Virus record (IMG/VR): IMGVR_UViG_3300005548_000033
Span: 1-24,106 of that record
Strand: one strand, 5' to 3'
DNA length: 24,106 nt
Source of the DNA: a virus
The notes under the pieces were generated by a model, which was not told the DNA's origin, did no database searches, and saw only the letters and a list, made by a program, of their open reading frames with translations. Made by a program: the position numbers and the translations under genes. Positions 3,508 to 16,648 of this stretch are shown here, piece by piece. Numbering within the stretch: position 1 is the first letter of the stretch; the number at the start of each line of letters is the position of its first letter.

Positions 3508-3689
3508 CAGTGCACTTCCGTGAGTTTGCCAGCGTCCCATTGTTCTTTGGACGTCCGATATACAAAGCCGCCATGCCAGGCCATGAAACCGACGATCTCT
3601 CCATGGGAATGAACTCGGATGCACCGAGTGTTCTTCCAGGTGACCTCAGGTTCGGCCAAAGCACGAGCTTGAAGTTCTTCGAAATTCAT
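3507..3689 (-). CDS. Hypothetical protein, 60 aa, at a strong promoter
   Basis: The ATG at 3689 lies only 5 nt after a near-consensus -10 hexamer, so a transcript from that promoter would be almost leaderless. Transcripts from further upstream could use a weak AGG. The protein has a helical start (NFEELQARALAEPEVTW) and a beta-like Gly/Trp segment (GEIVGFMAWHGGFVYRTS). It is coupled by TGATG to the possible nucleotidyltransferase gene. Function unknown. Confidence 0.6.
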   Translation of the reverse strand: MNFEELQARALAEPEVTWKNTRCIRVHSHGEIVGFMAWHGGFVYRTSKEQWDAGKLTEVH

Positions 3690-3694
3690 GGCCT

Positions 3695-3723
3695 ATTCTA
3701 TTTGAAAGTGTATTAGATGTCAA
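3695..3723 (-). promoter_or_regulatory. Host sigma70-type promoter
   Basis: On the minus strand there is TTGACA (3718-3723), a 17-nt spacer, and TAGAAT (3695-3700). This matches the -35 consensus fully and the -10 consensus at 5 of 6 positions. The -35 is preceded by GC (GCTTGACA), as in the second promoter at 5887-5915. The expected start point, about 3688, falls on or beside the ATG of the 60-aa gene. It overlaps the 3' end of the SLOG gene. It is likely an early promoter read by unmodified host polymerase. Confidence 0.6.
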
Positions 3724-4123
3724 GCAAATCTTTCGGGAACATGATCATCATTGGCCGCATCATCTTTCGTGCGTACCGAATGGTTGCCCAGGTCCCCGAA
3801 CGAAGCTGCTCTTCCAACTCGCCAGGGGTGGCGATCATGCCGTCACAGACTTCGACGATCGTCTTGTTCCGTTCCAACGGAGGCTTCGGTTCGAGAATCA
3901 CGTCGCCTTGTTTGAAAGCACGTTGATTCTCGAGGTTGCAAGGATGGATCACGATCTTGCAGTTGGGACAGACCTCTCGCACGATATCATGAGCGTCAGA
4001 ATCAGCCCCAATACAGTCGCCGTGATGGAATTCAACAGGCTGGATGATACCGATCGAGTGACCAAACCGCCACTTCTGATGATCGGTCATGCCCCGCCGG
4101 GTGCCCGTGAACCCTTGCTTCAT
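3713..4123 (-). CDS. SLOG-fold (DprA/YspA-like) nucleotide-binding protein
   Basis: This 136-residue protein has the features of the SLOG superfamily, Rossmann-like folds that bind nucleotide-derived ligands. It has an N-terminal strand and loop GFTGTRRGMT (residues 4-13), a second loop HGDCIGADSDAH (34-45), an ERNKTIVEVCDGMIATPG segment (84-101), and a C-terminal SGTWATIRYARK helix (109-120). Its length suits a single-domain member. SLOG proteins act as nucleotide sensors or hydrolases in several bacterial conflict systems; the role here is unknown and could be counter-defence. The start at 4123 overlaps the upstream stop as ATGA. Confidence 0.8.
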   Translation of the reverse strand: MKQGFTGTRRGMTDHQKWRFGHSIGIIQPVEFHHGDCIGADSDAHDIVREVCPNCKIVIHPCNLENQRAFKQGDVILEPKPPLERNKTIVEVCDGMIATPGELEEQLRSGTWATIRYARKMMRPMMIMFPKDLLDI

Positions 4124-4356
4124 CGCTGCGTGAATCCCTTGTCATCCACGAAGACCGTGTAACTCGCAACCGACTCACGATTCTTCTTGATCATGACGTT
4201 CAGGTTGTTGTCGAGCAACAGGTCCACGAGTTTGTAGAGATCGTCTCGGGTCAATCTCTCGACCGAGTTGTGCAGGATGTTGAGATTCTGCATCTTGGCG
4301 TGTACCGGACCGCCTGCCCAGGCGTAGAATGTGTACTCACAGACCAACGGGCACAT
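4120..4356 (-). CDS. Hypothetical protein, 78 aa
   Basis: The ATG at 4356 forms TGATG with the preceding stop and has a GGGAGAG 6 nt upstream, so it is preferred to an in-frame GTG at 4386. The product has an aromatic N-terminus (CPLVCEYTFYAWAGG), a helical middle (RLTRDDLYKLVDLLLDNN) and a beta-like end. No family recognised. It is translationally coupled to the SLOG gene after it. Confidence 0.65.
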   Translation of the reverse strand: MCPLVCEYTFYAWAGGPVHAKMQNLNILHNSVERLTRDDLYKLVDLLLDNNLNVMIKKNRESVASYTVFVDDKGFTQR

Positions 4357-4694
4357 CAGCAGCTCTCCCAGGAACTCGGCAGCCACATGGACTCCGAAGC
4401 GCCACTGGTCAGGCTCTCGATTTCAAGAGCATGATTCTCGCTGTTCCCGTATGACATCGACTCATCGACGCCGATGTCATAAGCCAGAGACATGTTGTTC
4501 TCGAAGGTCTCCATCGTCATCTTGCGGACGTCGTTCTGGAGCTCCGAAAGCTTCATGGCAGCCTTTTTCAACGTCTCGAGACGCTGCATGAAATCTGCAC
4601 GGTCCGTTGCCGTTGGGTTGTAGTGGACCTGATTCTCCGCAGATTCGAAGAGGTTGAACAGGTCCTTCACGTTTTCAACAGGTTTTGTGCTCAT
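4356..4694 (-). CDS. Helical hypothetical protein, 112 aa
   Basis: It starts at the ATG at 4694, overlapping the previous stop as ATGA. The central part (RLETLKKAAMKLSELQNDVR) is a probable coiled-coil helix; the C-terminal 40 residues are Ser/Glu-rich and look disordered. No motif suggests an enzyme. Function unknown. Confidence 0.65.
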   Translation of the reverse strand: MSTKPVENVKDLFNLFESAENQVHYNPTATDRADFMQRLETLKKAAMKLSELQNDVRKMTMETFENNMSLAYDIGVDESMSYGNSENHALEIESLTSGASESMWLPSSWESC

Positions 4695-5044
4695 CTCAGT
4701 GCCTTGGATGCGAGGGCGATGTGATGCCCGAGGTGGAGGAGGGCTTCGTCGTAAAGGCCCTTCGAAACAGCATCATACGCGAGGTCCATGCCAGCCCGAA
4801 CGTCGACAAGCGTATCACGCAGTTTGTTTCCGAACTTGACGTCATTGAACGTCGGCTCGCCGACACCGAAGACACAGATGCGGAAACCGTCGTCCTTGAG
4901 AGACCACTTGTTGATCTCGCGGGCACAATCCTCGCAATAGTACTTCATCGTCGAGGCGTTGTACCAGGTAGCGCCTGGCGCTTGACAAGCCGAGCGATTA
5001 CAGAGGCCGCCCTCTGCACCCTTAACGTTGGTCTTCTCGATCAT
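4691..5044 (-). CDS. Zn-ribbon protein, 117 aa
   Basis: The N-terminal 45 residues hold four cysteines in a zinc-ribbon-like layout (Cys15, Cys20, Cys37, Cys40) within LCNRSACQAPG and YYCEDCAREIN. I recognise this pattern as recurring in phage proteins of unknown function. The C-terminal half is a helical hairpin rich in Ala and His (LHLGHHIALASKAL). The start at 5044 overlaps a short upstream frame as ATGA. A role in nucleic-acid or protein binding is plausible; no enzymatic motif is visible. Confidence 0.7.
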   Translation of the reverse strand: MIEKTNVKGAEGGLCNRSACQAPGATWYNASTMKYYCEDCAREINKWSLKDDGFRICVFGVGEPTFNDVKFGNKLRDTLVDVRAGMDLAYDAVSKGLYDEALLHLGHHIALASKALR

Positions 5045-5097
5045 GTCAAATGCCCCGGGCCAAAGTTCGGATCAGTGTCTTTCGACGGGCCGTTCAT
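5041..5097 (-). CDS. Possible 18-aa microgene
   Basis: An 18-codon frame (MNGPSKDTDPNFGPGHLT) runs from an ATG at 5097 to a TGA at 5041. Both ends overlap neighbouring genes as ATGA, and a GAGG lies about 8 nt before the ATG. It fills the only gap between two coupled genes, which argues that ribosomes read it. It may matter only as a coupling device between its neighbours. Length alone cannot prove coding. Confidence 0.35.
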   Translation of the reverse strand: MNGPSKDTDPNFGPGHLT

Positions 5098-5225
5098 TTC
5101 TGCATCCTCGAAGGATCCTGGCAGTTGCCGACCAGTCCGGTGCGGCCCAGGATGTAGGTCTTGCCCTTGACGACAGCGCAGAGATAGCAGACGCCGTTGA
5201 TTGTGATGTTTCGATACGTGCTCAT
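5094..5225 (-). CDS. Small hypothetical protein, 43 aa
   Basis: It starts at the ATG at 5225, overlapping the previous stop as ATGA. The predicted protein is a small beta-rich chain (YRNITINGVCYLCAVVKG, then KTYILGRTGLVGNC) with three Cys. The CYLC and GNC cysteines could form a half zinc site, but a complete set of four ligands is not evident. Function unknown. Confidence 0.55.
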   Translation of the reverse strand: MSTYRNITINGVCYLCAVVKGKTYILGRTGLVGNCQDPSRMQK

Positions 5226-5389
5226 TTCAACTCCAGGCCGTTGCGTTCGGCGACGTCGTACCGGTACTGGTCCTTGTCGACGACTTGGCTGATGTGGTCG
5301 AGGTAGACCCACTCGTGGTTGATCCGGACGAGGATTGTTCCATCATCCGCAGTGTAGAGGTTCGAATTGATCTGGCGCATCTGCTTCAT
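5222..5389 (-). CDS. Small hypothetical protein, 55 aa
   Basis: The ATG at 5389 overlaps the previous gene's stop as ATGA; a longer open frame upstream is the antisense of the membrane-protein gene and is rejected. The product looks beta-rich (NLYTADDGTILVRINHEWVY) and ends with an acidic helix. It resembles small phage proteins of the type that display one or two strands and a helix; no name can be given. Confidence 0.6.
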   Translation of the reverse strand: MKQMRQINSNLYTADDGTILVRINHEWVYLDHISQVVDKDQYRYDVAERNGLELK

Positions 5390-5616
5390 TTCTTCACTTC
5401 CCACTTGATGCGTTCCGGATGGCGGATCATCGTATAGATGAACACCGCCGACACGAAAAGGAAGATGATGAGGAAGGGGCTCAGGATGAGCAGGAGCGGT
5501 CCGGTGAACCACCACCAGGAGATGTTGAACGAACTGGTGACGATGAGTCCGATGACCAGCCATGCCAAGATCCACGGCGTCAGGTTGATTGTGACAGTGC
5601 CAGGTTTGGTTCCCAT
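5386..5616 (-). CDS. Small membrane protein with two TM segments, 76 aa
   Basis: The ATG at 5616 has GGAGG 6 nt upstream. Two hydrophobic segments are visible: residues about 13-33 (PWILAWLVIGLIVTS) and about 36-64 (TGPLLLILSPFLIIFLFVSA). A positively charged tail (IRHPERIKWEVKK) would favour a cytoplasmic C-terminus. Phage proteins of this shape include superinfection-exclusion factors and holin-like proteins, but nothing here distinguishes these. It is far from the lysis genes, so holin is a weak guess. Confidence 0.7.
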   Translation of the reverse strand: MGTKPGTVTINLTPWILAWLVIGLIVTSSFNISWWWFTGPLLLILSPFLIIFLFVSAVFIYTMIRHPERIKWEVKK

Positions 5617-5618
5617 GA

Positions 5619-5846
5619 TCAGCCTCCCAAAGCTTCGACGGTTTCGACCATCGACAGCGAATCCGAAAAGTCGCAGAAGCGAGCCTTCGACGCCTCGGTG
5701 AAAAACTTGAGCGTCATATCGTTGATGTAAGGGCCGGTGGCCGCTTTACGTTCGAACGAGGCGATTTGGATGCCGTCTTCGAGAATGAAGCCCTTCGACG
5801 AATGGCGTGCGGGGTTCTTCGAGACGATTTGGACCGAGTACTGCAT
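5619..5846 (-). CDS. Hypothetical protein, 75 aa, first gene of an early operon
   Basis: It starts at the ATG at 5846 with AGGAG 6 nt before it. It is the first gene after the promoter at 5887-5915, which suggests it and the genes to its left are expressed early. The protein is beta-rich at the start (QYSVQIVSKNPARHSS) with a helix near residues 45-60 (LKFFTEASKARFCDF). No family recognised. Confidence 0.7.
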   Translation of the reverse strand: MQYSVQIVSKNPARHSSKGFILEDGIQIASFERKAATGPYINDMTLKFFTEASKARFCDFSDSLSMVETVEALGG

Positions 5847-5886
5847 CTTCAGCTCCTGAAGGTGAGGTGGTTTGGCCTACAACCAT

Positions 5887-5915
5887 AGTCTATTGGAAAC
5901 ACTTTCAAAAGTCAA
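5887..5915 (-). promoter_or_regulatory. Host sigma70-type promoter
   Basis: Minus strand: TTGACT (5910-5915), 17-nt spacer, TAGACT (5887-5892). It shares GCTTGAC at the -35 and ATAGA-T at the -10 with the promoter at 3695-3723. It lies between a terminator (5930-5960) and the first gene of the accessory operon (ATG at 5846), giving a leader of about 34 nt. This is the expected placement for an operon promoter. Confidence 0.65.
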
Positions 5916-5929
5916 GCATTTTCTTTGGA

Positions 5930-5960
5930 GAAACAAAAGAAAGGCGCCGTTGCCGACGCC
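5930..5960 (-). terminator. Rho-independent terminator after the secreted-protein gene
   Basis: Read on the minus strand, GGCGTCG and CGGCGCC pair (7 bp, one G-U) around a GCAA tetraloop of the stable GNRA class, followed by TTTCTTTTGTTTC. It lies about 60 nt after the stop at 6019 and just upstream of the next promoter, so it insulates two transcription units. Confidence 0.75.
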
Positions 5961-6018
5961 CCTCTGAACTCCTGGAAGTCTCAGGCCGCACTCTGAACCG
6001 CGCGGCGGAGCCAGGTCG

Positions 6019-6708
6019 TTAGTGCCACCAGAAGACCACGTTTCCTTGTGAGCTTGGAATATCATACCCAAACAAGATCTCGTAGGACTGGCCTGGGATC
6101 AGCTTGCAACGATATGGGTTTGCGTCAGCTGGATTCGTCGTTGTTGTGAGCAAAGTTTGATCCATGAATCGCTGATGTGACTTGAAGCAACCTGTGTCTG
6201 GGCCAGTCGGCCACGCGCCACCAACAGGAACAATCGCTACTCGTACTGAGTGAGCAGCATCATTTGGCGACGGTCCATACGAAACAGCAACAAGCGATCG
6301 AGAGATATTCGTCGGTGTGCCAGGCAGAACGTCAATACGGTCACGAATGATCTTGTTGGCTGGGAGAGTGACTGCCCAGGTCGGACCAGACAAGTACGGG
6401 AACACGCCGTTGAATGTTGGGACATTCGAGATACGACCAACGATTCCGCCAAAGTTAGTGCGAACATCGACGTTGTTGACCGGCCGGTAGACGCCGTGAT
6501 CACTGTAACGGATCTGTGTGAATGTCAGGGCCGTTGGATCATTCGGAGGAGGTGTGGTGGCGCAGTTTCCTGCGAAGTGGGTGGCATCAACCTGGGTCGC
6601 CGCGCAGAATGCTTCAACATTGTCCTTGTAGACGTGGACGTCGGCTGAAGCTGTACCGACAAAGAGAACGAGCAGAAGAGTGAAGATTTCAGGAATGAAT
6701 TTTCTCAT
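6019..6708 (-). CDS. Secreted protein with Sec signal peptide, 229 aa
   Basis: The ATG at 6708 follows GAGGTGA at normal spacing. Residues 1-22 make a classical signal peptide (MRKFIPEIFTLLLVLFVGT, then ASA before the predicted cut). The mature part is about 207 residues, rich in Pro, Thr, Asn and beta-favouring residues, with four Cys (in FCAAT, NCATT, TGCFK and YRCKL) that could form two disulfides. It ends in an aromatic strand (GNVVFWWH). It has its own terminator. A periplasmic or outer-surface role, such as superinfection exclusion, is possible but no family is recognised. It could also be an acquired bacterial gene. Confidence 0.75.
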   Translation of the reverse strand: MRKFIPEIFTLLLVLFVGTASADVHVYKDNVEAFCAATQVDATHFAGNCATTPPPNDPTALTFTQIRYSDHGVYRPVNNVDVRTNFGGIVGRISNVPTFNGVFPYLSGPTWAVTLPANKIIRDRIDVLPGTPTNISRSLVAVSYGPSPNDAAHSVRVAIVPVGGAWPTGPDTGCFKSHQRFMDQTLLTTTTNPADANPYRCKLIPGQSYEILFGYDIPSSQGNVVFWWH

Positions 6709-6718
6709 GCATTTCACC

Positions 6719-6976
6719 TCAAAGAACTGGTTTAGCGCCGCCCGAAGCATGATGTAGGGTAGAAATGTGGTGAGTCTCAGAACCATCTTCGTGCTGGACG
6801 GTCACACGAGTTCCGATATGAGAAGTGACAGTTCCAGTCATGCCGTGGTGCTTCGAAGGACGATAGTTCACCTGAACCTTCGTGCCTGCAGCAAGGTGCT
6901 TATCTGGGTTGACCTTCTCGCTGTTGATGCGAGAGTCTTCGTTCAGTTCTGTTGTCCAATCAGTGAAAGATTTCAT
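6719..6976 (-). CDS. Small SH3/KOW-like protein with capsid-targeting-like N-terminus
   Basis: This 85-residue protein starts at the ATG at 6976 (ATGA overlap with the gene before it). The N-terminus MKSFTDWTTELNE resembles the T4 capsid-targeting sequence MKTYQEFIAE. Residues about 28-75 have the spacing of a small SH3/KOW barrel: AGTKVQVNYR, then GMTGTVTSHIGTRVTVQ and a DGSETHH turn. Such barrels often bind nucleic acid or polymerase. If the leader is real, the protein may be packaged in the head and trimmed after the Glu; this is inference from similarity. Confidence 0.6.
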   Translation of the reverse strand: MKSFTDWTTELNEDSRINSEKVNPDKHLAAGTKVQVNYRPSKHHGMTGTVTSHIGTRVTVQHEDGSETHHISTLHHASGGAKPVL

Positions 6977-7065
6977 TGGTGTTGTACTCCGAAAGCGAGA
7001 TAGACGAAATGTGCCACTGCGATGAGGGCAACGAAGATGACGAGTGCGATGAGAAACTGTTTCAT
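6973..7065 (-). CDS. Single-TM microprotein, 30 aa
   Basis: The 30-codon frame has ATGA overlaps at both ends (start in the stop of the 239-aa gene, stop in the start of the KOW-like gene). Nearly the whole chain is one hydrophobic helix (FLIALVIFVALIAVAHFVYL) after a Lys/Gln start, so a single-pass inner-membrane peptide is expected. The double coupling and clean hydrophobic profile make it credible despite its length. Function unknown. Confidence 0.6.
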   Translation of the reverse strand: MKQFLIALVIFVALIAVAHFVYLAFGVQHQ

Positions 7066-7781
7066 TTCTCAAATCTCTTGGCGAAGGCTTCAACCTTCTC
7101 GTGTGGCGTCTGCTTGGCGTTTGCTGCTCGAACCGAGACGGCGAGCGTCTTGCCAGCATTGTGATAGACGTTGAAGTTGTGGCCTTCGTGCTCAATGGTC
7201 TTTGTTGACCCGTACGATTCGCCGTAGCCAGCCTTCGGAATCTTGTGTTCCTTCATCTTCTCTTCAGAAGTCTCAACGTGAATCGGTCGACCTTCATTTG
7301 ATCCGACGTAGCCTTCCTCAATACGAGATCTGATGATATCGATCGCGGATTGCTCTTCATGGAGCTTCTCAACCGACACAGCCATGTAGAATTTGACAGT
7401 GCCCTTGACATCAACGTCGTAGCCCATCACCTTGCCATTCTTCTCCTTGACACCGACGACCTTTCCTGCATGGCCGGCAGCCAAAACAGCAGCGCCCGGT
7501 CCATACGTTTCTGGCTTGTCGGCCATCCGAAGTTTCAAGAAATCTGTAGATGACATCTCCTCGATCTTTTCCTCAGGCTCCTGAATCAGATCTTGAAGCT
7601 GAGTGACCAACTGACGAACTTTCGTCATGTTCTTGATACGTGTACCTTTTGTCGTCAACTCCATCTGAATCTGGTTCAGATCGTTGAGAATTTCAGCAAA
7701 CATCTGAGTCAAACCCTGGTTGTTTGCTTTCAGGTAACCCTGTACCTTCGAAATTGCTGTACTTAGTGCCTGGGATGCCAT
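7062..7781 (-). CDS. Helical protein with KOW/SH3-like segment, 239 aa
   Basis: It starts at the ATG at 7781 with a weak AAGAAG upstream. Residues 1-85 are helical, probably coiled coil (LTQMFAEILNDLNQIQMEL). Residues about 98-140 look like a small SH3/KOW barrel (GPGAAVLAAGHAGKVVG, then NGKVMGYDVDV), recalling the small protein two genes downstream. The C-terminal 90 residues are charged and mixed. A TTAAATA element and a dyad lie just upstream. No catalytic motif is visible; a structural or nucleic-acid-binding role is possible. Confidence 0.7.
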   Translation of the reverse strand: MASQALSTAISKVQGYLKANNQGLTQMFAEILNDLNQIQMELTTKGTRIKNMTKVRQLVTQLQDLIQEPEEKIEEMSSTDFLKLRMADKPETYGPGAAVLAAGHAGKVVGVKEKNGKVMGYDVDVKGTVKFYMAVSVEKLHEEQSAIDIIRSRIEEGYVGSNEGRPIHVETSEEKMKEHKIPKAGYGESYGSTKTIEHEGHNFNVYHNAGKTLAVSVRAANAKQTPHEKVEAFAKRFEK

Positions 7782-8290
7782 CGTATTCTTCTTGGTGGGA
7801 TACTCACGTATTTAAGTATCCTACTGAGTATCAGTTGGGGCTGTTGAGCCACACCTTCGGCTGTTGCCAACCGAAGGTGCAGCAGTCATCAGTACGGAGC
7901 CGATAACCACACAGTGAGTCAAGCTGCTGTATAGTGCGGACGCGAGAACCGGACGGCGCCCTTCGCTTGCTTCGGAATATTCTGCCACACCGAGGAGAGA
8001 ACATCACATCTCAAATCGGTGACACTGGTCGCAGGTGAGCGTTGCCAGTCATGCCTTTGGATTGTGACTCAGAAGTACCTACAGCCTCTTGCTCACGGCG
8101 AGACACGTGGTCCGACGATTAGTGCTGGCCCATTGTGGCTGAGTCACGATGAAGAAAGGCAGCACGGCACTATGGCTCTGGGCTCAATCTCATCCTATAC
8201 CCTATCAGTCTAGTATGAAATCGTTAGGAAACTGGCCCAACTTTGATACAGTAAGAAGGCACACTTGCGATGCAGAGGCGTGCCCCGTGT
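7782..8290. other. Gene-free, inverted-repeat-rich stretch (candidate structured RNA or control region)
   Basis: About 500 nt hold no convincing gene, in a genome where genes otherwise overlap. Perfect inverted repeats are visible. GATACTCA/TGAGTATC lies at 7799-7806/7825-7832. CACCTTCGG/CCGAAGGTG lies at 7852-7860/7871-7879 (9 bp, 10-nt loop). CACCGA/TCGGTG lies at 7988-7993/8016-8021, with an inner GAGA/TCTC. ACTGG/CCAGT lies near 8024-8049. GTGACTCAG/CTGAGTCAC lies at 8064-8072/8139-8147. No tRNA TPsiC motif was found. A plus-strand GTG frame at 8019-8213 lacks a ribosome site and is not called. Confidence 0.5.
7799..7832 (-). promoter_or_regulatory. Late-promoter-like TTAAATA inside a dyad
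   Basis: The minus strand reads ACTTAAATACG, matching 6 of 8 positions of the T4 late -10 TATAAATA. It is flanked by an 8-bp perfect inverted repeat (GATACTCA/TGAGTATC) and ends 28 nt before the ATG at 7781. The dyad could be an operator or a hairpin in the DNA around the promoter. Similar TAAATA elements precede the AAA+ and PARP genes. Confidence 0.35.
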
Positions 8291-8647
8291 TTAATTTGGG
8301 AGGCTGAAGTCGATCCAATTCTTCTCGTTGCAGCCCCATCTGATTTGGCAGGAATACTTTTGCTCGATCTTCTTCACGATTTCTGAGATCTTGGAGGCAG
8401 AGTCGTTCGTCAGGATCTGCCAATCGTAATCCTCGCCGTCATCATCGTCAGGCATTTCATGACGAGGCGGATTCTCCCATCTGCCGAGATCACGTACTTC
8501 AAGAGTACCATGAGGAACTTCGTTGGTACGCCACTCGGTCATTCGGGTGTTGAGAGATGTTGACTTTAGAGCCAACATCAAGTCGTGAAGGATGTCAGTT
8601 GAACGTGCGTGGACGCCTTCGTTCATGAATTCTGTGAAGCCTTTCAT
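8291..8647 (-). CDS. Hypothetical protein with capsid-targeting-like N-terminus, 118 aa
   Basis: The ATG at 8647 overlaps the stop of the TM microprotein as ATGA. The N-terminus MKGFTEFMNE aligns position by position with T4 MKTYQEFIAE (Met-Lys-x-aromatic-x-Glu-Phe-x-x-Glu), so it may be a head-packaged protein cleaved after Glu10. The rest has an acidic loop (PDDDDGEDYDW) and a C-terminal alpha/beta segment (SKISEIVKKIEQKYSCQIRW). No enzyme motif is recognised. A weak hairpin lies after the stop at 8262-8287. Confidence 0.65.
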   Translation of the reverse strand: MKGFTEFMNEGVHARSTDILHDLMLALKSTSLNTRMTEWRTNEVPHGTLEVRDLGRWENPPRHEMPDDDDGEDYDWQILTNDSASKISEIVKKIEQKYSCQIRWGCNEKNWIDFSLPN

Positions 8648-8772
8648 CTACAATCCTTTTCGTGGCCTTGGTTCCAGAACCACATGCAAGCGAAGATCAT
8701 ACAGGCGCCGACCACTACAACAACGATCAGAGTCTGCAGGAGTTGGTTGAACCATTGAGTATCGGCGTCCAT
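8644..8772 (-). CDS. Single-TM protein, 42 aa
   Basis: It starts at the ATG at 8772 behind a good AAGGGG site and ends in an ATGA overlap with the next gene. Residues 13-34 form one TM helix (TLIVVVVVGACMIFACMWFW), with a short polar N-terminus (MDADTQWFNQ) and a basic tail. It is a good coding candidate because of its ribosome site, coupling and hydrophobic profile. Function unknown; a role in membrane anchoring or superinfection control is possible. Confidence 0.7.
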   Translation of the reverse strand: MDADTQWFNQLLQTLIVVVVVGACMIFACMWFWNQGHEKDCR

Positions 8773-8788
8773 TGAATCCCCTTGTGAA

Positions 8789-8847
8789 AGCTCTCGGTCC
8801 TGGGCCTATCCCCACTCTACCAGCTGGTGGGTTGATGACCGAGAGCT
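8789..8847. repeat. Long inverted repeat, 11-bp stem, upstream of the 42-aa TM gene
   Basis: AGCTCTCGGTC (8789-8799) and GACCGAGAGCT (8837-8847) are perfect complements separated by 37 nt, which themselves contain the palindrome ACCAGCTGGT. On the minus strand the hairpin ends 16 nt before the ATG at 8772, just 5' of the ribosome site. It has no U-tract on either side, so a leader structure, RNA-processing site or protein-binding site is more likely than a terminator. Confidence 0.55.
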
Positions 8848-8899
8848 GTGTTTCGCCGTCCTTGCTTCATCCTTGACCAGCTCACGAATCCTTCGTGAA

Positions 8900-9112
8900 T
8901 TACTTCCCCATGTTCTTCTTTCGAGCTTCTTCTGCGGCTTTCTCGAGGCCTGGATTGTGTGGCTTTCCGGCTGCGGCAGCCTCAGCGGCCTTCTTCTTGG
9001 CATGCAGAGCATCCAGTGCCTTGTTGAAGTATGCACCTTCGCCCGAGACAGTCTTTTCGTCAATGACAATCTTACCTTCAACGAGCTGGTCTACAAATGT
9101 GTTGAAATCCAT
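8900..9112 (-). CDS. Small Ala/Lys-rich protein with capsid-targeting-like N-terminus, 70 aa
   Basis: The ATG at 9112 has GAGGAA 7 nt upstream. The N-terminus MDFNTFVDQLVE resembles the T4 capsid-targeting consensus. The remainder is very rich in Ala and Lys (ALHAKKKAAEAAAAGK, then AEEARKKNMGK), basic and low in complexity, as in T4 internal head proteins that condense DNA or are injected. That comparison is inference. A 7-bp hairpin (TCACGAA/TTCGTGA, 8882-8898) follows immediately after the stop codon. Confidence 0.65.
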   Translation of the reverse strand: MDFNTFVDQLVEGKIVIDEKTVSGEGAYFNKALDALHAKKKAAEAAAAGKPHNPGLEKAAEEARKKNMGK

Positions 9113-9124
9113 GATGTGTTCCTC

Positions 9125-10618
9125 TTAGCTATAACGTTTGACGAGACGCTGCCATTCGGTTCCGCCAACACCAGCGGCAGCAGCACCGGCACGGATATTC
9201 AGACCACGGATCAGCTTTCGGATGTTCAGGTCGTTCTTGTTTTGGCCGATCAGGTCAACAACTTCGGTACGCTCGGCGTCCGACAGAATCAAACCATCAT
9301 CCAATGGGATGCCGTTGCAGATCTTGCGCATGAAGTTGAGAACTTCTTCGTCCGTTGGATCGATTGAGATCATCAGCGCACGTGTACGCAGAGCCTTGTC
9401 CGGGTCCAGCTTGTCTATCGCCAGGTTGGAGATGAAGACAATCTGTCCCTTGAACTCGTAGTATGTTGGGAGCATTCCCTGCTCGATGTCAGCGTCGGTG
9501 ATGACGTCTGGGTCTAGCAGATTCTTCGAAGCCTTCATCCAAGACAGCTTACGCACCTTCTTGGTGTCGGTAGCGGCCTTGATCAGGTTACGAGAGTCCT
9601 GATCCGAAAGAGCGCCGTCGGCGTCATCGAATAGGACCAGATCGTTTCGGTGCTTGAACAGCTCTCGATAGATACCGCCGGCAGATGCCGAACCAGTGAT
9701 CTTGAAGTAGCCGTCGCCGTCTCGCAGACCAGCATCCGAAAGGACCTTCTCAACAGTGTGGGTCTTACCGACACCACCTCGTCCAGCAATGAATAGGGCA
9801 TTCGAAGCGCCCTTGATCGTCAGCCTGATCAGACCCTCAAGGTCCTTCAGCTGGTCCTCATATGCGAGATGTTCCAAACCTTCTTTATCCATGGCGTCGA
9901 ACTTCGTGTCGCCTGTATATTTTTCACCAGTGCCGCCTGGAACGACCTTGACCTTGACAGCGCCAACGGCGTGCAGGATTGTGTCACGCATTGCCTTGAT
10001 CTTCTCGACGTCTGAATGCAGACCCTTGAAGATTGTATCACGCCCATCCTTCGCGAAGAGGTTAGCGTAGTGTTCGCGGATATACTGGATGATTTTATAT
10101 GTTGCAGTCTTGTTTGCCAAGGCCGTTAGAGGAACTTTTTCCCCTGCCTTGAGCGAGTTGATGACAATCTCAAACGGATCATCAGAAATGTTTTCTTCGA
10201 GGCGCATTGGCTCGAATGGATCTGGGATCGCGATGATGTCTTCAGGCTTGATATTTGGCGCCGTCAGGATCTGTACGATCGTCGGGAGGATTGTGACAAG
10301 TGACAGCTCACGATCGAACTCTAGGTGCCAGGTCGGATCCTTGCCGCCACCGCCTTCCCAAACGTCAACAGAGTCGAGCTCTGCTGAGCTGAAATTCGTG
10401 TGTACCCAATTGAATCGGATGGAATCATCGTTTCCGTAAAATAGACGAATACCGAAGCCACGGTTCTTGCTGTTCGAGAACTCTTCATAGCCAGGCATCC
10501 TGAAGATCAGGTGCGGAGTGTGCTTAACCAGGTAGGTCGTGATCAGCTCCGCCGCACGATCGATGTTGCCTGTCGAGATGGCTTCATTCAGCCATTCTGT
10601 GAATTCGAGAAGGATCAT
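9125..10618 (-). CDS. AAA+ family ATPase, 497 aa
   Basis: The protein has a Walker A motif GRGGVGKT (residues 279-286), a Walker B motif LVLFDDAD (327-334), a sensor-1-like GQIVFISN near residue 390, and an Arg-rich LRTRALMISI beyond it. Residues 1-250 are an alpha/beta region of unknown type beginning MILLEFTEWLNE, which resembles a capsid-targeting sequence. It is not the replicative helicase or the clamp loader by motif spacing. The start at 10618 has a poor ribosome site, but a CTAAATAA late-promoter-like element lies about 35 nt upstream. Substrate unknown; motor or remodelling activity is expected. Confidence 0.8.
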   Translation of the reverse strand: MILLEFTEWLNEAISTGNIDRAAELITTYLVKHTPHLIFRMPGYEEFSNSKNRGFGIRLFYGNDDSIRFNWVHTNFSSAELDSVDVWEGGGGKDPTWHLEFDRELSLVTILPTIVQILTAPNIKPEDIIAIPDPFEPMRLEENISDDPFEIVINSLKAGEKVPLTALANKTATYKIIQYIREHYANLFAKDGRDTIFKGLHSDVEKIKAMRDTILHAVGAVKVKVVPGGTGEKYTGDTKFDAMDKEGLEHLAYEDQLKDLEGLIRLTIKGASNALFIAGRGGVGKTHTVEKVLSDAGLRDGDGYFKITGSASAGGIYRELFKHRNDLVLFDDADGALSDQDSRNLIKAATDTKKVRKLSWMKASKNLLDPDVITDADIEQGMLPTYYEFKGQIVFISNLAIDKLDPDKALRTRALMISIDPTDEEVLNFMRKICNGIPLDDGLILSDAERTEVVDLIGQNKNDLNIRKLIRGLNIRAGAAAAGVGGTEWQRLVKRYS

Positions 10619-10650
10619 TATGGGTGTCCAAGTATGTGTGGCGTACCCAT

Positions 10651-10658
10651 TTATTTAG
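10651..10658 (-). promoter_or_regulatory. Late-promoter-like CTAAATAA upstream of the AAA+ gene
   Basis: Minus strand CACTAAATAAATGG lies between a terminator and the ATG at 10618. It matches the TAAATA core of the T4 late -10. The position, just after a terminator and about 33 nt before a start codon, is what a promoter needs. No -35 is required for T4-type late promoters. Confidence 0.35.
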
Positions 10659-10663
10659 TGATC

Positions 10664-10693
10664 CAAAAAGAAGGGCGACACAAGGCCGCCCTT
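10664..10693 (-). terminator. Rho-independent terminator
   Basis: Minus strand: AAGGGCG and CGCCCTT (7 bp) around a 9-nt loop, followed by CTTTTTGG. It lies 30 nt after the stop at 10723 and separates the DsbA/DexA unit from the AAA+ gene. Confidence 0.7.
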
Positions 10694-10722
10694 AAGATGT
10701 ACCGAGGTACACCGGGAGAATA

Positions 10723-11127
10723 CTAGCGAACGGCAACTCCTTTCGATCCCGCTGTCACCGTTCTGGCGATCAACTGAGACAGGAAGTTGGACCACAATGT
10801 GTCCGGCGCGTTCGGAGACAGGGGCTTCGATGCGATGTAGACCATGCCCTTGATGAATGTGTCGTAGTCTGAGATATACTTGTGGGCCAATTCTTCCTGA
10901 CGAGAGAAGAGGAACTCGACCAACGACTTGTCGATTGTGAGTGTATTCGGTGCTGGTGTTGCCATGCGCTGTGCTCCTTGAGCGACCGGAGCCGCAGGTT
11001 GTACTTTAGCAGCGGCAGCTGCTGCCTTGGCGCCAGGCTTTGGACCTGGCTTCTTTCGTTCAGTTGTTGCCACAATTTCTCTCGTCGGCTCTTCACCGAA
11101 CGGTGTTCCTGAGAATCTAGTTGCCAT
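10723..11127 (-). CDS. Hypothetical protein with basic, Ala/Pro-rich N-terminus, 134 aa
   Basis: The ATG at 11127 overlaps the DsbA-like gene by 11 nt. Residues 20-60 are low-complexity and basic (ERKKPGPKPGAKAAAAAAK); the KKPGPKPG element recalls an AT-hook-like or linker DNA-binding motif. The C-terminal 70 residues are helical (IDKSLVEFLFSRQEELAHKY). Immediate neighbourhood with a DsbA-like gene makes a role in DNA binding or transcription plausible. It lacks the hydrophobic C-terminal tail of T4 gp33, which is better matched by another gene here. Confidence 0.65.
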   Translation of the reverse strand: MATRFSGTPFGEEPTREIVATTERKKPGPKPGAKAAAAAAKVQPAAPVAQGAQRMATPAPNTLTIDKSLVEFLFSRQEELAHKYISDYDTFIKGMVYIASKPLSPNAPDTLWSNFLSQLIARTVTAGSKGVAVR

Positions 11128-11669: not shown

Positions 11670-12266
11670 TCATTCTCCAGAGTTGATTTTGTAGAGTTCT
11701 TTCATCTTTGCGGCGTCATGCGCAGCATCGTGCAGAGCATGGTGCTTCACAAATTCTTTCGGGACGCCACCTTGGAGTTCATACTGACCATTGTCAGTTC
11801 CAGCTAAGATGTCAATGAATGTGCGGACGTCACGTACGCGGAAGGTGTTGAAAGGAACCTTCATGCCGACTTGGTCGAACAGGTCTTCGATTTTTGGGAA
11901 GTCGAAAGCATTGCCGCGTGACCAGAGGTACGACTTCTTCCATTCGTACTTGCGGCCCTTGATCCAAGTCGTCAGTTTGGTCAGACCCTCTTCAAGGCCG
12001 ACATCGTTCGGAGACGGGATGATTGAATGGACCTTTGCTTCTTGGGGCTGGCCCTTCCAGAAATCGAGAGTCGACTGTGTAGTCTGACGGCCCATCTTCA
12101 GCTGTTCGGAGATTTTGAACTTCACGAAGAAGCCCTCACTCACCAGCTTTGGATACGTTTCATCACCTTCAAACGTGAAAGGAACACACGCTAGCGAAGT
12201 GACAACGGCGTGCTCTTTCAGACCAAGGGTTTCAACGTCGAATATTTGGTGCTCTACTACAGCCAT
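11670..12266 (-). CDS. dexA: DexA-like DEDDh 3'-5' exonuclease, 198 aa
   Basis: The DEDDh exonuclease motifs are all present: FDVETLG (Asp10, Glu12), SRGNAFDFPKIEDLF (Asp122) and HHALHDAAHD (His175, Asp180). The arrangement and length, slightly shorter than T4 DexA (227 aa), fit the DexA/Rv2179c-like branch, which includes exonucleases and exoribonucleases. It would degrade DNA or RNA 3' ends, perhaps host DNA or recombination intermediates. The ATG at 12266 has GGAG 6 nt upstream. Enzyme class is secure; DNA versus RNA substrate is not. Confidence 0.85.
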   Translation of the reverse strand: MAVVEHQIFDVETLGLKEHAVVTSLACVPFTFEGDETYPKLVSEGFFVKFKISEQLKMGRQTTQSTLDFWKGQPQEAKVHSIIPSPNDVGLEEGLTKLTTWIKGRKYEWKKSYLWSRGNAFDFPKIEDLFDQVGMKVPFNTFRVRDVRTFIDILAGTDNGQYELQGGVPKEFVKHHALHDAAHDAAKMKELYKINSGE

Positions 12267-12312: not shown

Positions 12313-12636
12313 TCAGGCCGGATTTCTTAACAGTATCAAATACCGACCAAATTCAATCAGGTCATTCATGAATTCTGATGTGAAACGCACGACGTAAATC
12401 TCGCCACCATCAGAGTACGGAGTATCGATGTAGAGGACGGGCCCTTGGCCAGAACCTTCCATAGAGACATGAGGTCCGAACTGGTATTGGTCAAACTCAG
12501 TGAAGGATACGACCTCATTTTCAGAGATCGGAATCGTGCCGTCCATGAATGTGTATGAAACAAGCTGTGTCGGCGAAACCTGGCCAGTTTCTTCCTTCAG
12601 GTACTGGCCAAATGGCTTGATGATGAGTGGGTTCAT
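12313..12636 (-). CDS. Hypothetical protein, 107 aa
   Basis: The ATG at 12636 overlaps the PARP gene stop as ATGA, so the two are translated together. The N-terminus (IKPFGQYLKE) loosely resembles the capsid-targeting pattern but is displaced by several residues. The body is beta-rich and acidic (NEVVSFTEFDQYQFGP), then a EIYVVRFTSEF strand and a C-terminal helix. It might be an inhibitor or partner of the PARP-domain protein simply because of its coupling; nothing in its sequence shows this. Confidence 0.65.
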   Translation of the reverse strand: MNPLIIKPFGQYLKEETGQVSPTQLVSYTFMDGTIPISENEVVSFTEFDQYQFGPHVSMEGSGQGPVLYIDTPYSDGGEIYVVRFTSEFMNDLIEFGRYLILLRNPA

Positions 12637-15600
12637 GTATTGTCCGTATCGTCGTCTACGTCGATGCCCTTGTCCTTCATCAGGGTCTTGTACTTACCCT
12701 TCATGTCGCGCATCTCGGCCTTGTCTGTCAATTCAATTTCGTAGGCCTTGTAGATTCTCAGCTGGCCGTTTGGATTGAAGACGCACCACTCTGGCGAGCG
12801 GATACCATCAGTTCCATCAACACCTGCGCAGTTGTAGTCCTTGCCCTTCTTACCCAGGTTGGCTCTCATCTCAAAGATGTAGCCCTTGTTGCCTTTGCCT
12901 CGGGAGAATGAGCTGTCGGAAGCGTACTGAGCAGCCTTGTCAATGACGTTTGAGAAGTAGATGCCGTTGCCCAACATCTTGCCCGCGATAGCGACGCCGC
13001 CACCGCCTTCGATGATGACTGCGAATCCGAAACGGAGAATGAACGAAGCGGCAACTGAACCCGTTCCATGGAAGACCGGGATCATGACTTCGTCATCCTT
13101 GTGGACTTCATCCCACTTTGCAGTCAGTTCAGCTTGAATTGGAACGTCGACCTTGAATTCCTTCACAACCTTGATCGCAATGTCGCCGTGGCGATACTTG
13201 TTGTGTTTGTCGAGCTTGATGGAACGCTCGAGCAGCTCAGCCTCGTCCAGGTCGTTGTGCTCGACATGCAAGTCACGCCAGACCAGCTTCGCCTGGTTAC
13301 GCATGTCAAGGATCTCGTCCAAGGTCTCAAGTTTCGAGACATCGACTTTCTTCTCGGTTGGAAGCTCAATGTTGTTGAACTTCATGAGGATACGCATCTG
13401 CTCAGGAGTCGTCGGTGTCAACGGCTTGATGACAGACGTGTTCAACAGGTTGACGAGAACATTGACAGCAGAGAACTCAGCGAAGTACTTGGCCGCAAAT
13501 TCGCGCAGAACCGGATGCTTCTTGAGGTGCGCGAACAGCCTATCTGCGTCCTGCTTACGATCGTCAGCCCAACGGCCAATGATATCACAGACCGCCAAAC
13601 GAATAGCAGACTGGTGGTTGTATTCTTCAGCCGTTTTGTCCTGCTTCTTGTCCACGATCTCTTCGATAACATCGAGGAGCTTGGACATCGCCTCGAAAGA
13701 CAGAGCCGGGTGGTGCATCTTCGCACAATTGTCGAGGATGTGCAGTAGCTGTGCTGTATCTTTCGGCGTCTGAGACTTCAGGGCCTCACGCAGGTGCTCG
13801 TCTGGGAAAATCTGCAGGAGCTTGTCGACTTCAGCAGTCGGAAGAGCATCAGTAACAACCGCCAACGAGTCAGGTGAATGAGCATGCTGTGCCATGGCGG
13901 TGTATGCACGCTCTTGGATCTTTCGGGTGTACAAATTACCCATCCAATCAGACTTCATGTAGACGTCGCGTGAGCCCAAAACATCTGGGCGCCACTGAGT
14001 GATCTTCAGGTTATCAAATGCCTTACCGAAGAGTGCCTGCACATGATCAGGAACATCTTTTGATGGCAAATCTGCAAGGTTTCTCGACGGATCACAGAAC
14101 TTGATAGGATCGAGTCCACCTAGAGACATGCGCTTCTGGATGTTTGAGAAGACCTCGTTACGGATCTTCATGTTCTTGGACGCGAGGAGCTTCAGGTACG
14201 GAGACTTCGGTTCAGTCTTGGCGAGGAGCTCATAAGCCGACTGGATCTTGTCATCCGAGAATGCGAACTTCATGAAGTCTTCATAACCGAGTGACTTCAA
14301 CAGCATCAAAAGAACGCGTGGGTCGTTCCAGACCAGCTTGTCTTTCCACGGCAGCAGAACATCTTCCACGGCCTTCTTGAGGAACGCGAGGTTCTTTGGG
14401 GCCGTGATATTGAAGGTTCCGCGCTCCGAGTCGATCATGTCTGGGAGCTTGTTGACGTACTGCAATCTTGGAAGCATTGCTACATACTGACGCCACGCCA
14501 GAGGTGTTGAGCTGGCGATGATCATCATGTAGTACGTGGCCTTTGGCGAGACCATGTTTGGATGCAGGTTCGCGTACTCTTGGTTCAGATTGACCAAGAA
14601 GTGGTAGAAGGTTGCACGTGTGGAGATCGATTGGCCCTGGCAGTAGTCAACGATTGATCCGAGAACAAGTCCCAGACCAGGCGTACCGAGGTCTTTGATG
14701 TAGTCACAGATCCGGTCCATGACCGGCTTGGATTCCATCAACTCCCACAGCTTCTCCATCGAACCCAACAGGGGAACAATTCGAGAAGTCTGGAGCATAA
14801 ACGCTTCAGGTCGAAGGGTAGCGGTTCCGAGGCACGCCTTCCAGGCTTTCAGGATCGCGTCTTCTGGCGATACCGAGAGATCATGGATGACGTATTTCGA
14901 CTTGTTCTTTGGATTCGTGGCGTACTTGTCTTCGATCTGGATGAATGCCTTCTGAACTGCATTCATCTCATGCAGCAGTTTGGCATCGACTTTGATCATG
15001 TAGCCTTCGTCCATGTTCTCCACATTCTCTTCTGGAATGCCGAGAGCACGAGCGACCTTGATGTAGTTAGTGGCGTAGAATCTCGCCATCTGTGCTCGCA
15101 CGTCCTTGTCAAAGAACGACGACTGTAGGAACAGAGCGCCCAGCTCTGCTTTGAAATCCTTCGTTGCAGAGAGTTGGACGTCTTCTAGATTCTTGAGGAT
15201 TCGGAACAGCGAGTTGACGGTGGCAGGACCGCGATCCAGGCCCCATTTCTCAAACTGTGGGATGACGTTTTCGCAGACAATCTCAGTCGCCTTCCTGGAT
15301 TCATCTCCTGTCAGGAACCACTGCTTCTTCTGTGCATATTCAGTTCCGGACCACATCTTCACGAACTTCTCGATGTCAGACTCGAGATACGCTTTGGTCT
15401 GGATCCACTTTGACCGATACATGATCAGGATGTAGGTCAGGGCTGGGCCTGATCCAGCATGCTCAGTCAGAACGGCGTTGAGAGGTGACTTGGAAGGCTT
15501 GGACGGAATAGTGATCTTCGAGAGAAGCTCTTCGGGCGCGTTGTTCAGCCACGTCATGAACCTCTTCCAATCGAAGGTCTTCACATCTGAACCGTGGTGG

Positions 15601-15677
15601 CGGAGTACGTTTTCGATCTTGGAGATCGATTCGCCCGCACAAATCTCAAGGTTCAGTTGGGTGTAATCTGTTGTCAT
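12633..15677 (-). CDS. Large protein with C-terminal PARP-type ADP-ribosyltransferase domain, 1014 aa
   Basis: Residues 1 to about 840 are alpha-helical with no recognised domain, probably a solenoid of HEAT-like helices. The C-terminus has the PARP catalytic pattern. PVFHGTGS has His870 in the NAD-binding strand. GNGIYFSNVIDKAAQYA has Tyr907 in the position of the second triad residue. GYIFEMRANLG follows as the next strand. PEWCVFNPNGQLRIYKAYEI has Glu963 in the position of the catalytic glutamate. An H-Y-E triad is that of PARPs that can transfer ADP-ribose. T4 ADP-ribosyltransferases (Alt, ModA, ModB) are of the unrelated R-S-E class. Targets could be host polymerase, ribosomes or defence proteins (inference). 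The start at 15677 has a weak ribosome site. It follows a terminator and overlaps the next gene. Confidence 0.8.
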   Translation of the reverse strand: MTTDYTQLNLEICAGESISKIENVLRHHGSDVKTFDWKRFMTWLNNAPEELLSKITIPSKPSKSPLNAVLTEHAGSGPALTYILIMYRSKWIQTKAYLESDIEKFVKMWSGTEYAQKKQWFLTGDESRKATEIVCENVIPQFEKWGLDRGPATVNSLFRILKNLEDVQLSATKDFKAELGALFLQSSFFDKDVRAQMARFYATNYIKVARALGIPEENVENMDEGYMIKVDAKLLHEMNAVQKAFIQIEDKYATNPKNKSKYVIHDLSVSPEDAILKAWKACLGTATLRPEAFMLQTSRIVPLLGSMEKLWELMESKPVMDRICDYIKDLGTPGLGLVLGSIVDYCQGQSISTRATFYHFLVNLNQEYANLHPNMVSPKATYYMMIIASSTPLAWRQYVAMLPRLQYVNKLPDMIDSERGTFNITAPKNLAFLKKAVEDVLLPWKDKLVWNDPRVLLMLLKSLGYEDFMKFAFSDDKIQSAYELLAKTEPKSPYLKLLASKNMKIRNEVFSNIQKRMSLGGLDPIKFCDPSRNLADLPSKDVPDHVQALFGKAFDNLKITQWRPDVLGSRDVYMKSDWMGNLYTRKIQERAYTAMAQHAHSPDSLAVVTDALPTAEVDKLLQIFPDEHLREALKSQTPKDTAQLLHILDNCAKMHHPALSFEAMSKLLDVIEEIVDKKQDKTAEEYNHQSAIRLAVCDIIGRWADDRKQDADRLFAHLKKHPVLREFAAKYFAEFSAVNVLVNLLNTSVIKPLTPTTPEQMRILMKFNNIELPTEKKVDVSKLETLDEILDMRNQAKLVWRDLHVEHNDLDEAELLERSIKLDKHNKYRHGDIAIKVVKEFKVDVPIQAELTAKWDEVHKDDEVMIPVFHGTGSVAASFILRFGFAVIIEGGGGVAIAGKMLGNGIYFSNVIDKAAQYASDSSFSRGKGNKGYIFEMRANLGKKGKDYNCAGVDGTDGIRSPEWCVFNPNGQLRIYKAYEIELTDKAEMRDMKGKYKTLMKDKGIDVDDDTDNT

Positions 15678-15690
15678 CGGCAGGATCCAA

Positions 15691-15726
15691 AATAAAAGGG
15701 CACCATAGACCGCGTGCCCTTTTATT
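15691..15726. terminator. Strong bidirectional terminator between gp32 and the PARP gene
   Basis: AATAAAAGGGCAC (15691-15703) and GTGCCCTTTTATT (15714-15726) are 13-bp perfect complements around a 10-nt loop. On the minus strand the second arm ends in TTTTATTTT, a good U-tract, 20 nt after the gp32 stop (15746). An AATAAATA late-promoter-like element (15723-15730) overlaps its outer arm. Confidence 0.8.
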
Positions 15727-15730
15727 TATT
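15723..15730 (-). promoter_or_regulatory. Late-promoter-like AATAAATA upstream of the PARP gene
   Basis: Minus strand CTGAATAAATAAAAGG matches 7 of 8 positions of TATAAATA. A transcript beginning here would start inside the terminator hairpin and so would not form its full stem, letting polymerase continue into the PARP gene. Composition-driven chance matches are possible. Confidence 0.35.
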
Positions 15731-15745
15731 CAGTGAACGAAGACC

Positions 15746-16648
15746 TTAATCTTCGAGCATCTTGCGGTACGCCTCGAGGTCCTCGTCATCACCAGCTGGC
15801 GCTGATGCCTTCTGGCCCTGTGGCTTCTTCGGCTCGTCTGCGTCGAACGGAGGATCGTCGTTTCGAGTCGAAGTAGCACGCTCTTCATTGCCACCAGCCT
15901 GACGCTCCTGAGCAGGTGCGCCACCGATAACCGAGAGGAAGCGCTTCTTCAGCGTCTCGTAGTCCTTGAACTTGTCCGGGGCGATTTCCGGAAGCAGTGC
16001 GTACTGCGAAGCATAGAGTGCCTCGAGCTTCTTGTCGTCGCCATCGAACAACGGTGCCGGCTTTTCAAACTCCGACTTGTCGTATGAACGCTGCTTGTCG
16101 ACGATGCGCGCCTTGAGCTTGAAGTTCGCGCCTTCCCAGAAGTTGAACGGATCAAACGAGATTTCGTCTTCGAACTCTGGCTTGACGGCGCCCTGCAGCT
16201 TCTGGAAGATGCGCGGACCGTACTTATAGAGGAAGACTTTGCCTTCGTTCGCCGGATTCTTCGGATCAGAGATGACGAGGATATTGGAGATGTAGCGAGT
16301 CGAGCGCGAGTACTTCTTCGCCTCGTCCTTCATGCCTGCGTTCCACAGTTCAGCCCACTTTTCCGAGACCGGATCAGGTTCGCCAAGGGTATCACGAGAC
16401 GCTTCGATGTACCAGCGATTGGTACGCTTGTCCTGGAACGCGTACTCGAAGATCTTGACGTAGGGGAACTCTTCGCCTTCTGGCGGCGGGAGGAAACGGA
16501 TGGTTGCCATTCCGTTGCCGGCCTGGTCGACTTGGAACTCCCAATAGCGGGCGTCTTTCTCGTAGCCGGACTTACCTTCGTTGGTCAACTTGTTTGCGAG
16601 AGCTGCCATCGAATTCTTGCTGTTTTTCTTGAGGTTTGCAAATGACAT
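15746..16648 (-). CDS. 32: gp32-like single-stranded DNA-binding protein, 300 aa
   Basis: Length equals T4 gp32 (301 aa). Conserved segments are the core start (EFQVDQAGNGMATIRFLP), the NILVISDPKNPANEGKVF strand, the FWEGANFKLKARIV strand, and an acidic C-terminal tail (GDDEDLEAYRKMLED) that in T4 recruits replication partners. A basic N-terminal helix precedes, as in the cooperative B domain. The protein has no cysteine at all, so the T4 zinc site (His-Cys3) is absent; TLGEPDPVSEKWAEL replaces that loop. The ATG at 16648 has AGGAG 7-9 nt upstream. It coats ssDNA in replication and recombination. Confidence 0.9.
   Translation of the reverse strand: MSFANLKKNSKNSMAALANKLTNEGKSGYEKDARYWEFQVDQAGNGMATIRFLPPPEGEEFPYVKIFEYAFQDKRTNRWYIEASRDTLGEPDPVSEKWAELWNAGMKDEAKKYSRSTRYISNILVISDPKNPANEGKVFLYKYGPRIFQKLQGAVKPEFEDEISFDPFNFWEGANFKLKARIVDKQRSYDKSEFEKPAPLFDGDDKKLEALYASQYALLPEIAPDKFKDYETLKKRFLSVIGGAPAQERQAGGNEERATSTRNDDPPFDADEPKKPQGQKASAPAGDDEDLEAYRKMLED

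Follow-up and report, generated by a model that had tools for sequence, protein, structure and literature searches.

What a T4-like phage would do with an enzyme of the PARP class is the question raised by one open reading frame in the window, by which we mean the whole 24,106-nt stretch of viral DNA analysed here. Phage PARPs have been catalogued for twenty years without an assigned function. A sequence-only reading of the window had recognized an H-Y-E layout at the end of a 1014-residue protein. We asked what class of domain this is, how it varies among relatives and when and where such a protein might act.

The PARP-class domain and its locus

The locus comprises the following features.

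12633-15677, minus strand: PARP-domain protein, 1014 residues (ORF list; phrog_18612, E=5e-65; Pfam PARP, E=1.6e-5)
12708-13289, minus strand: PARP-class ADP-ribosyltransferase (ART) domain, residues ~797-990 (PARP1 homology, AlphaFold2, Foldseek)
13068-13070, minus strand: His870 codon, H of H-Y-E (kept in 30/32 aligned sequences)
12957-12959, minus strand: Tyr907 codon, Y of H-Y-E (kept in 32/32)
12789-12791, minus strand: Glu963 codon, E of H-Y-E, predicted catalytic (kept in 32/32)
13398-13805, minus strand: helical segment preceding the ART domain, residues ~625-760 (AlphaFold2 pLDDT about 58-92)
13818-15677, minus strand: N-terminal part, residues 1-620, helical and fast-evolving (low pLDDT; no BLASTP match before ~478)
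12313-12636, minus strand: ORF2, 107 residues, the family C-terminal domain as a separate ORF (tblastn, profile, sequence)
15723-15728, minus strand: TAAATA, core of a T4-type late promoter, 45 nt ahead of the PARP start codon
15698-15719, minus strand: GGGCAC...GTGCCC terminator-like hairpin and T run between gp32 and the PARP gene (read in the sequence)
15746-16648, minus strand: gp32 single-strand DNA-binding protein, upstream neighbour (Pfam, E=7.7e-35)
11670-12266, minus strand: Rv2179c-like exonuclease, downstream neighbour (Pfam, E=2e-26), also downstream in relatives
9125-10618, minus strand: AAA+ protein, 497 residues, related to T4 NrdC.10 (targeting-like start MILLEFTEWLNE^A; TAAATA core 33 nt upstream)

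The motifs FHGTG(S) with His870, GNGIYFSN with Tyr907 and PEWCVF with Glu963 form a PARP-like triad exactly as first placed. The two checks that had been suggested for this assignment, a profile search against PARP families and a comparison of the predicted structure with the PARP fold, both return PARPs. Pfam PARP (PF00644) matches the window protein with E=1.6e-5 at 24.9 bits, slightly below the curated cut-off of 26.7. It also hits each of the eight phage homologues scanned, the lowest E being 1.4e-7. PARP1 structures are matched by sequence with E=0.002 when the window protein is used alone and E=2.3e-7 with the family profile, and this homology covers residues 797-922. Because it starts near residue 797, the domain spans ~200 residues and begins ~70 residues ahead of the coordinates given by the sequence-only reading. 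That reading had equated the domain with the last 145 residues; the triad does lie there, but the domain starts near 797, not 870.

We built a full-length AlphaFold2 model from a 32-sequence alignment. For residues 800-1000 its pLDDT is mostly 80-97, falling briefly around 896-899; for residues 1-600 most values are under 50, in keeping with the earlier description of a large, mostly helical N-terminal part that has no recognized fold. Modelled separately, residues 625-1014 reach a mean pLDDT of 84 and a pTM of 0.80, with the ART part mostly above 90. In a Foldseek search of the PDB, the best 50 matches are all PARP1, PARP2 or PARP3, with E down to 3e-10; those of the 625-1014 model are exclusively PARP1 or PARP2. 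The whole-chain TM against PARP structures is only about 0.4 (rmsd 12-17 Å), we think because the helices flanking the ART core fail to superpose. Long Foldseek alignments (3Di) had suggested a PARP1-like regulatory helical domain; superposition, at the same rmsd, did not, and we do not adopt this assignment. PADLOC returned no match for the window protein.

The H-Y-E enzymes are defined by a triad at strand 1, strand 3 and the front of strand 5 (Otto et al., PMC1266365). In our model strand 864-872 contains His870, strand 906-909 contains Tyr907 and strand 963-966 has Glu963 at its front edge, and this placement, by model and alignment, agrees with the published class definition. The window protein thus contains a PARP-class ADP-ribosyltransferase domain, confirmed by fold and triad, at about residues 797-1000. 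Triad conservation and the lack of Alt homology likewise uphold the earlier distinction from the R-S-E class of Alt, ModA and ModB.

Across 32 aligned sequences that share 24-37% identity, the tyrosine and glutamate are kept in all and the histidine in 30, being replaced by Tyr in L018 and by Ser in L034. These two losses, and the distant similarity to viral coat proteins that Otto et al. (PMC1266365) noted for the large domain(s) of the Aeh1 protein, would suit a degenerate or structural product, that is, a virion or assembly protein carrying an inactive PARP domain. We regard this as quite improbable, since the triad persists despite such low identity and the window copy retains all three residues.

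The phage family and its late-promoter core

The window protein matches phrog_18612 over residues 686-1001 (E=5.1e-65), and ORF2 matches positions 1121-1208 of the same profile. A PARP in a T4-like genome had been called unusual, which does not stand: a PARP was described from the T4-like phage Aeh1 in 2005 (PMC1266365), and phage PARPs were reported again later, with function at most predicted (PMC4245714, PMC10789625, PMC9503650). By tblastn we find relatives in 36 phage records, among them phages of Stenotrophomonas and Aeromonas, Pseudomonas phage pf16, Xanthomonas phage X1, Ochrobactrum phage OC and, with a distant PARP, two Lysinibacillus phages. A profile search finds relatives encoded at 45 viral loci, and the same kind of search across 84,980 prokaryote genomes returned one matching contig, from a MAG. 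Phage PARPs are already known, and the new element here is evidence bearing on the family's use. Three observations go beyond the sequence-only reading: the late promoter, the targeting sites of relatives and the detached C-terminal domain.

Family members are typically about 950-1500 residues long. The window copy does end with its PARP domain, as had been proposed, but most relatives carry a further domain of ~100 residues after it, on which Pfam finds nothing significant; the OC phage member has no such domain. One phage contig, L019, holds tandem complete PARP genes (3133-7056 and 7173-11108; 1308 and 1312 residues), both starting LxE^NSLYTD (the caret marks the putative cut), which recalls the partial alt duplication alt.-1/alt.-2 in T4. 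In the Lysinibacillus phage LysYB1 (Herelleviridae; L009:3895-6513), a different PARP protein with a possible WGR-like start is encoded directly before the portal, protease and capsid genes, and this gene position also suggests head association.

The TAAATA core, a short motif defined, like the cleavage-site motifs below, partly after seeing the sequences, is found in the 100 nt ahead of the PARP gene at 32 of 38 loci, compared to 4.6% of background windows from these contigs, although the homologues share ancestry and such motif counts are not independent. It usually lies 26-45 nt from the start codon. In Aeh1, Ah1 and phiAS5 the core before the PARP gene reads CTAAATA, which is the published Aeh1 late promoter, and in that phage late promoters are reported exclusively 5' of late-gene orthologues (PMC1524935). 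In phage Marzo, intergenic GATAAATA sites precede the tail tube, endolysin, neck protein and PARP genes. The window core (15728-15723) sits at the edge of the terminator hairpin after gp32, as do those of pf16 and X1; it is one mismatch from TATAAATA and falls within the A/T-rich flank of the terminator.

Late expression bears on one alternative, in which the PARP is a toxin restrained by an ADP-ribosylglycohydrolase (ARG/ARH) in a toxin-antitoxin or superinfection-exclusion module. Iyer et al. 2022 (PMC9503650) propose an ART-ARG toxin-antitoxin pair for certain Aeromonas phages. Their passage on it leaves the PARP gene unnamed, and the pair presumably corresponds to the ARH and PARP neighbours of Aeh1 and its relatives. 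An ARH gene indeed lies 135-189 nt upstream of the PARP gene in Aeh1, Ah1, phiAS5 and L052. However, ARH is absent from the complete pf16, Marzo, X1 and OC genomes and from 16 of 17 further records, the window neighbours scanned include none, and a constitutive toxin-antitoxin pair fits poorly with a late promoter and prohead-type sites. We therefore think such a module a distant prospect for the family. Because it is missing from most records, ARH appears to be mostly a branch-specific addition in Aeromonas phages, where it may instead protect the producing cell. A macrodomain does not serve as a general partner either, being present in only 3 of 15 records.

Putative prohead-protease sites and the atypical window copy

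Every full-length relative (33/33) has an N-terminal [LIM]xE within its first 34 residues, compared to 17% of internal windows. The strict form LxE^N[ST][LFI]Y is present in 27 of the 33, with one occurrence elsewhere within the same proteins. The site often sits in MKxFxxFLxE, and examples include MKFKEFLELQE^NSLY (L021), MTKNFKSFLGE^NSLY (L045), MMKRFSDYLLE^NSLY (L036), MLLLE^NSLY (Marzo), ..YQRFLAE^NTLY (Aeh1) and ..LLTE^LF (pf16). A second site, F..[arom][LIM].E, stands between the PARP domain and the ~100-residue C-terminal domain in 25 of 32 sequences, compared to 1.2% of internal windows. An alignment of the C-terminal domain, built mostly from sequences selected for having the motif, has four invariant columns, one of which is the glutamate of this site.

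Known T4 substrates served as controls. Both ipII and ipIII begin MKTYQEFIAE^A, and Alt begins MELITE^LFDED and has ELTE^SVIYDG near its C-terminus; published mass spectrometry places the Alt cuts after ITE-6 and LTE-619 (PMC5694885). Aeh1 offers a control within one phage, because MSIKEMLMTE^A opens its own Alt homologue and FGEMLTE^A stands at its PARP junction. The Marzo scaffold protein, of a kind that such proteases normally cut, contains 13 [LIM]xE[AGSNT] sites against 2.2 in shuffles, and 0 of 5000 shuffles reach 13. Many of these sites have Asn following the Glu, like the PARP starts. Given this excess, the phage's protease plausibly cuts at such sites. We did not find virion proteomics for any family member in the literature, and the pf16, OC and X1 papers report none of this protein.

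Taken together, these motifs suggest a route similar to that of T4 Alt. A T4-type late promoter would drive synthesis of the family PARP late in infection, the protein's N-terminal targeting peptide would bring it into the prohead (core), and there the prohead protease would trim one or both ends by cutting after LxE sites. The protein would then be injected with the DNA, as Alt is despite belonging to an unrelated ART class, and within minutes of entry into the new host would use NAD+ to ADP-ribosylate host machinery or defence proteins. DNA or RNA ends, which the sequence-only reading had also suggested, are possible alternative targets. The sequence-based case for packaging of the family PARP is fairly strong. 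For the complete model, a late-made, head-packaged, injected and doubly clipped PARP-class ART analogous to Alt, we judge the balance to be moderately in favour.

One extension of this model concerns the product. Met901 and Lys914, both invariant, correspond in the alignment to PARP1 Met890 and Lys903, residues with a role in chain elongation, and by this alignment polymerase activity is possible. That a head-delivered PARP, clipped at both ends like Alt, builds poly(ADP-ribose) on host proteins nevertheless seems to us doubtful.

An alternative is that the protein is a late intracellular enzyme that stays out of the head and modifies phage or host proteins at assembly or lysis, its N-terminal motifs being assembly-interaction peptides. 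Like ModA and ModB, such an enzyme would be produced inside the infected cell, although late. The late-type promoter core, the window copy with no N-terminal site and the position of the PARP gene beside gp32 and the exonuclease, not among head genes, would all be accommodated. However, LxE sites at two ends with a conserved scissile glutamate match Alt and the internal proteins, and T4 Alt is also encoded away from the head cluster, next to gene 30 (DNA ligase). We consider an unpackaged enzyme unlikely and continue with the packaged, injected PARP as the preferred reading.

The window phage is the weakest case for packaging, and here the claim is held less firmly, since its PARP protein has no recognizable N-terminal site. 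No LxE targeting peptide is evident there, in contrast to all full-length relatives. By BLASTP the relatives leave it unmatched before residue ~478, and the family N-terminal region (profile A5) matches neither the window protein nor any of the window's six frames. The C-terminal domain is encoded separately: ORF2 matches the C-terminus of the pf16 protein (tblastn, E=1e-12) and the C-terminal-domain profile A4 (E=1.2e-29, with ORF2 itself included in A4). ORF2 begins MNPLIIKPFGQYLKE^ETGQ, a capsid-targeting-like site, and thus the site that is internal in relatives stands here at the start of a separate protein. In the packaged-PARP model the window phage would carry an altered version, in which the separate C-terminal-domain protein retains the targeting-like start. 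Two histories would give this arrangement: the domain separated and took its targeting signal along, or a free-standing ORF2 came first and was fused in the relatives.

The ORF2 ATG overlaps the PARP stop codon by 4 bases (ATGA). A programmed frameshift joining the two frames was considered and rejected, because no slippery heptamer was seen by eye near the overlap; we prefer coupled reinitiation, and ORF2 is probably translationally coupled to the PARP ORF. Since one contig covers the junction and no second one spans it (L002 reaches residues 1-598 only), the split may be an assembly error. Searches of viral contigs with ORF2 and with the AAA+ protein found nothing.

Targeting-like starts recur in the window. 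Three small minus-strand ORFs begin MKSFTDWTTELNE^D (6719-6976), MKGFTEFMNE^G (8291-8647) and MDFNTFVDQLVE^G (8900-9112), and we regard them as candidate internal head proteins. A loose targeting motif is present in 5 of 41 gene-like window ORFs, including ORF2 (P=0.004), and a tighter motif, chosen after seeing the data, in 4 (P=2.4e-6). With these starts, the region would fit a late cluster of head-protein genes. In L016 and L051, too, the AAA+ protein starts with a targeting-like peptide; an AAA+ ATPase packaged inside the head would be odd. Elsewhere in the window, positions 2545-3624 (minus strand) encode a DUF7275/DUF7277 protein (phrog_2141, E=5e-99). In L022, two paralogues (9229-10002 and 10062-10847) start MKTFKQYIQE^ASVTPIKS, almost the T4 IP targeting sequence, and with a WRGE motif after this start they may belong to the R-S-E type of ART.

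Comparison with known systems

The window copy shares with the Aeh1 pART (NP_944019; phrog_18612) a PARP domain near the C-terminus, the H-Y-E triad and an upstream late-promoter core. Three features of Aeh1 are missing from the window copy: the LAE^N site at the N-terminus, fusion of the C-terminal domain and a neighbouring ARH gene. The best cultured relative by identity is pf16 gp92 (AND75015), at 46% over the PARP region and with a C-terminus homologous to ORF2; unlike the window copy, it is a single ORF of 1312 residues with an N-terminal LLTE^LF site.

With PARP1, PARP2 and PARP3 the window protein has in common the ART fold, the triad, the GxGIYF motif and a lysine at Tyr+7. It differs in that the Pfam scan finds no WGR match and the helices before the ART domain do not superpose on the PARP helical domain. 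The Tyr-to-Glu spacing is 56 residues in the window protein, compared to 92 in PARP1.

The T4 IPII and IPIII targeting sequence resembles the MKxFxxFLxE^ start found in the PARP family and in other window ORFs; these T4 proteins are small internal head proteins, not ADP-ribosyltransferases.

Other ART and NAD genes lie near the PARP gene in some phages. Just upstream of it in L031 is an R-S-E class ART (G008:C1:103549-104067; PF03496, E=1.9e-8), so that two ART classes stand side by side. Marzo (MZ326868.1 59743-62325; L004:12698-15280) has, a few kb from its PARP, genes annotated as a bifunctional ADP-ribosyltransferase/ADP-ribosylpyrophosphatase and a nicotinate ribosyltransferase. The nadV gene of Aeromonas phages is similarly placed near PARP, and a supply of NAD+ for the ARTs is possible.

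The closest parallel in layout is T4 Alt. Like Alt, the family consists of large ARTs of T4-like phages in which one short LxE site lies at the N-terminus and another follows the ART domain. Unlike the PARP family, Alt is of the R-S-E class, and its packaging and processing are experimentally known. Membership of the PARPs in the Alt family was rejected, given their H-Y-E triad and the lack of sequence homology (hhalign of the family's N- and C-terminal domains against Alt, E=0.2 and 0.27); the processing layout alone is alike. Neither pf16, Marzo, X1 and OC nor several further large records yielded an Alt-like protein, and in these the PARP may therefore stand in for Alt. If the packaging model is true, the role of phage PARPs is testable in cultured phages, and the family would be a natural example of PARP chemistry on bacterial targets. 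Two unrelated ART classes would also have been recruited to one delivery route, with Aeh1 and phiAS5, and more weakly the L031 phage, carrying both an Alt-like protein and a PARP.
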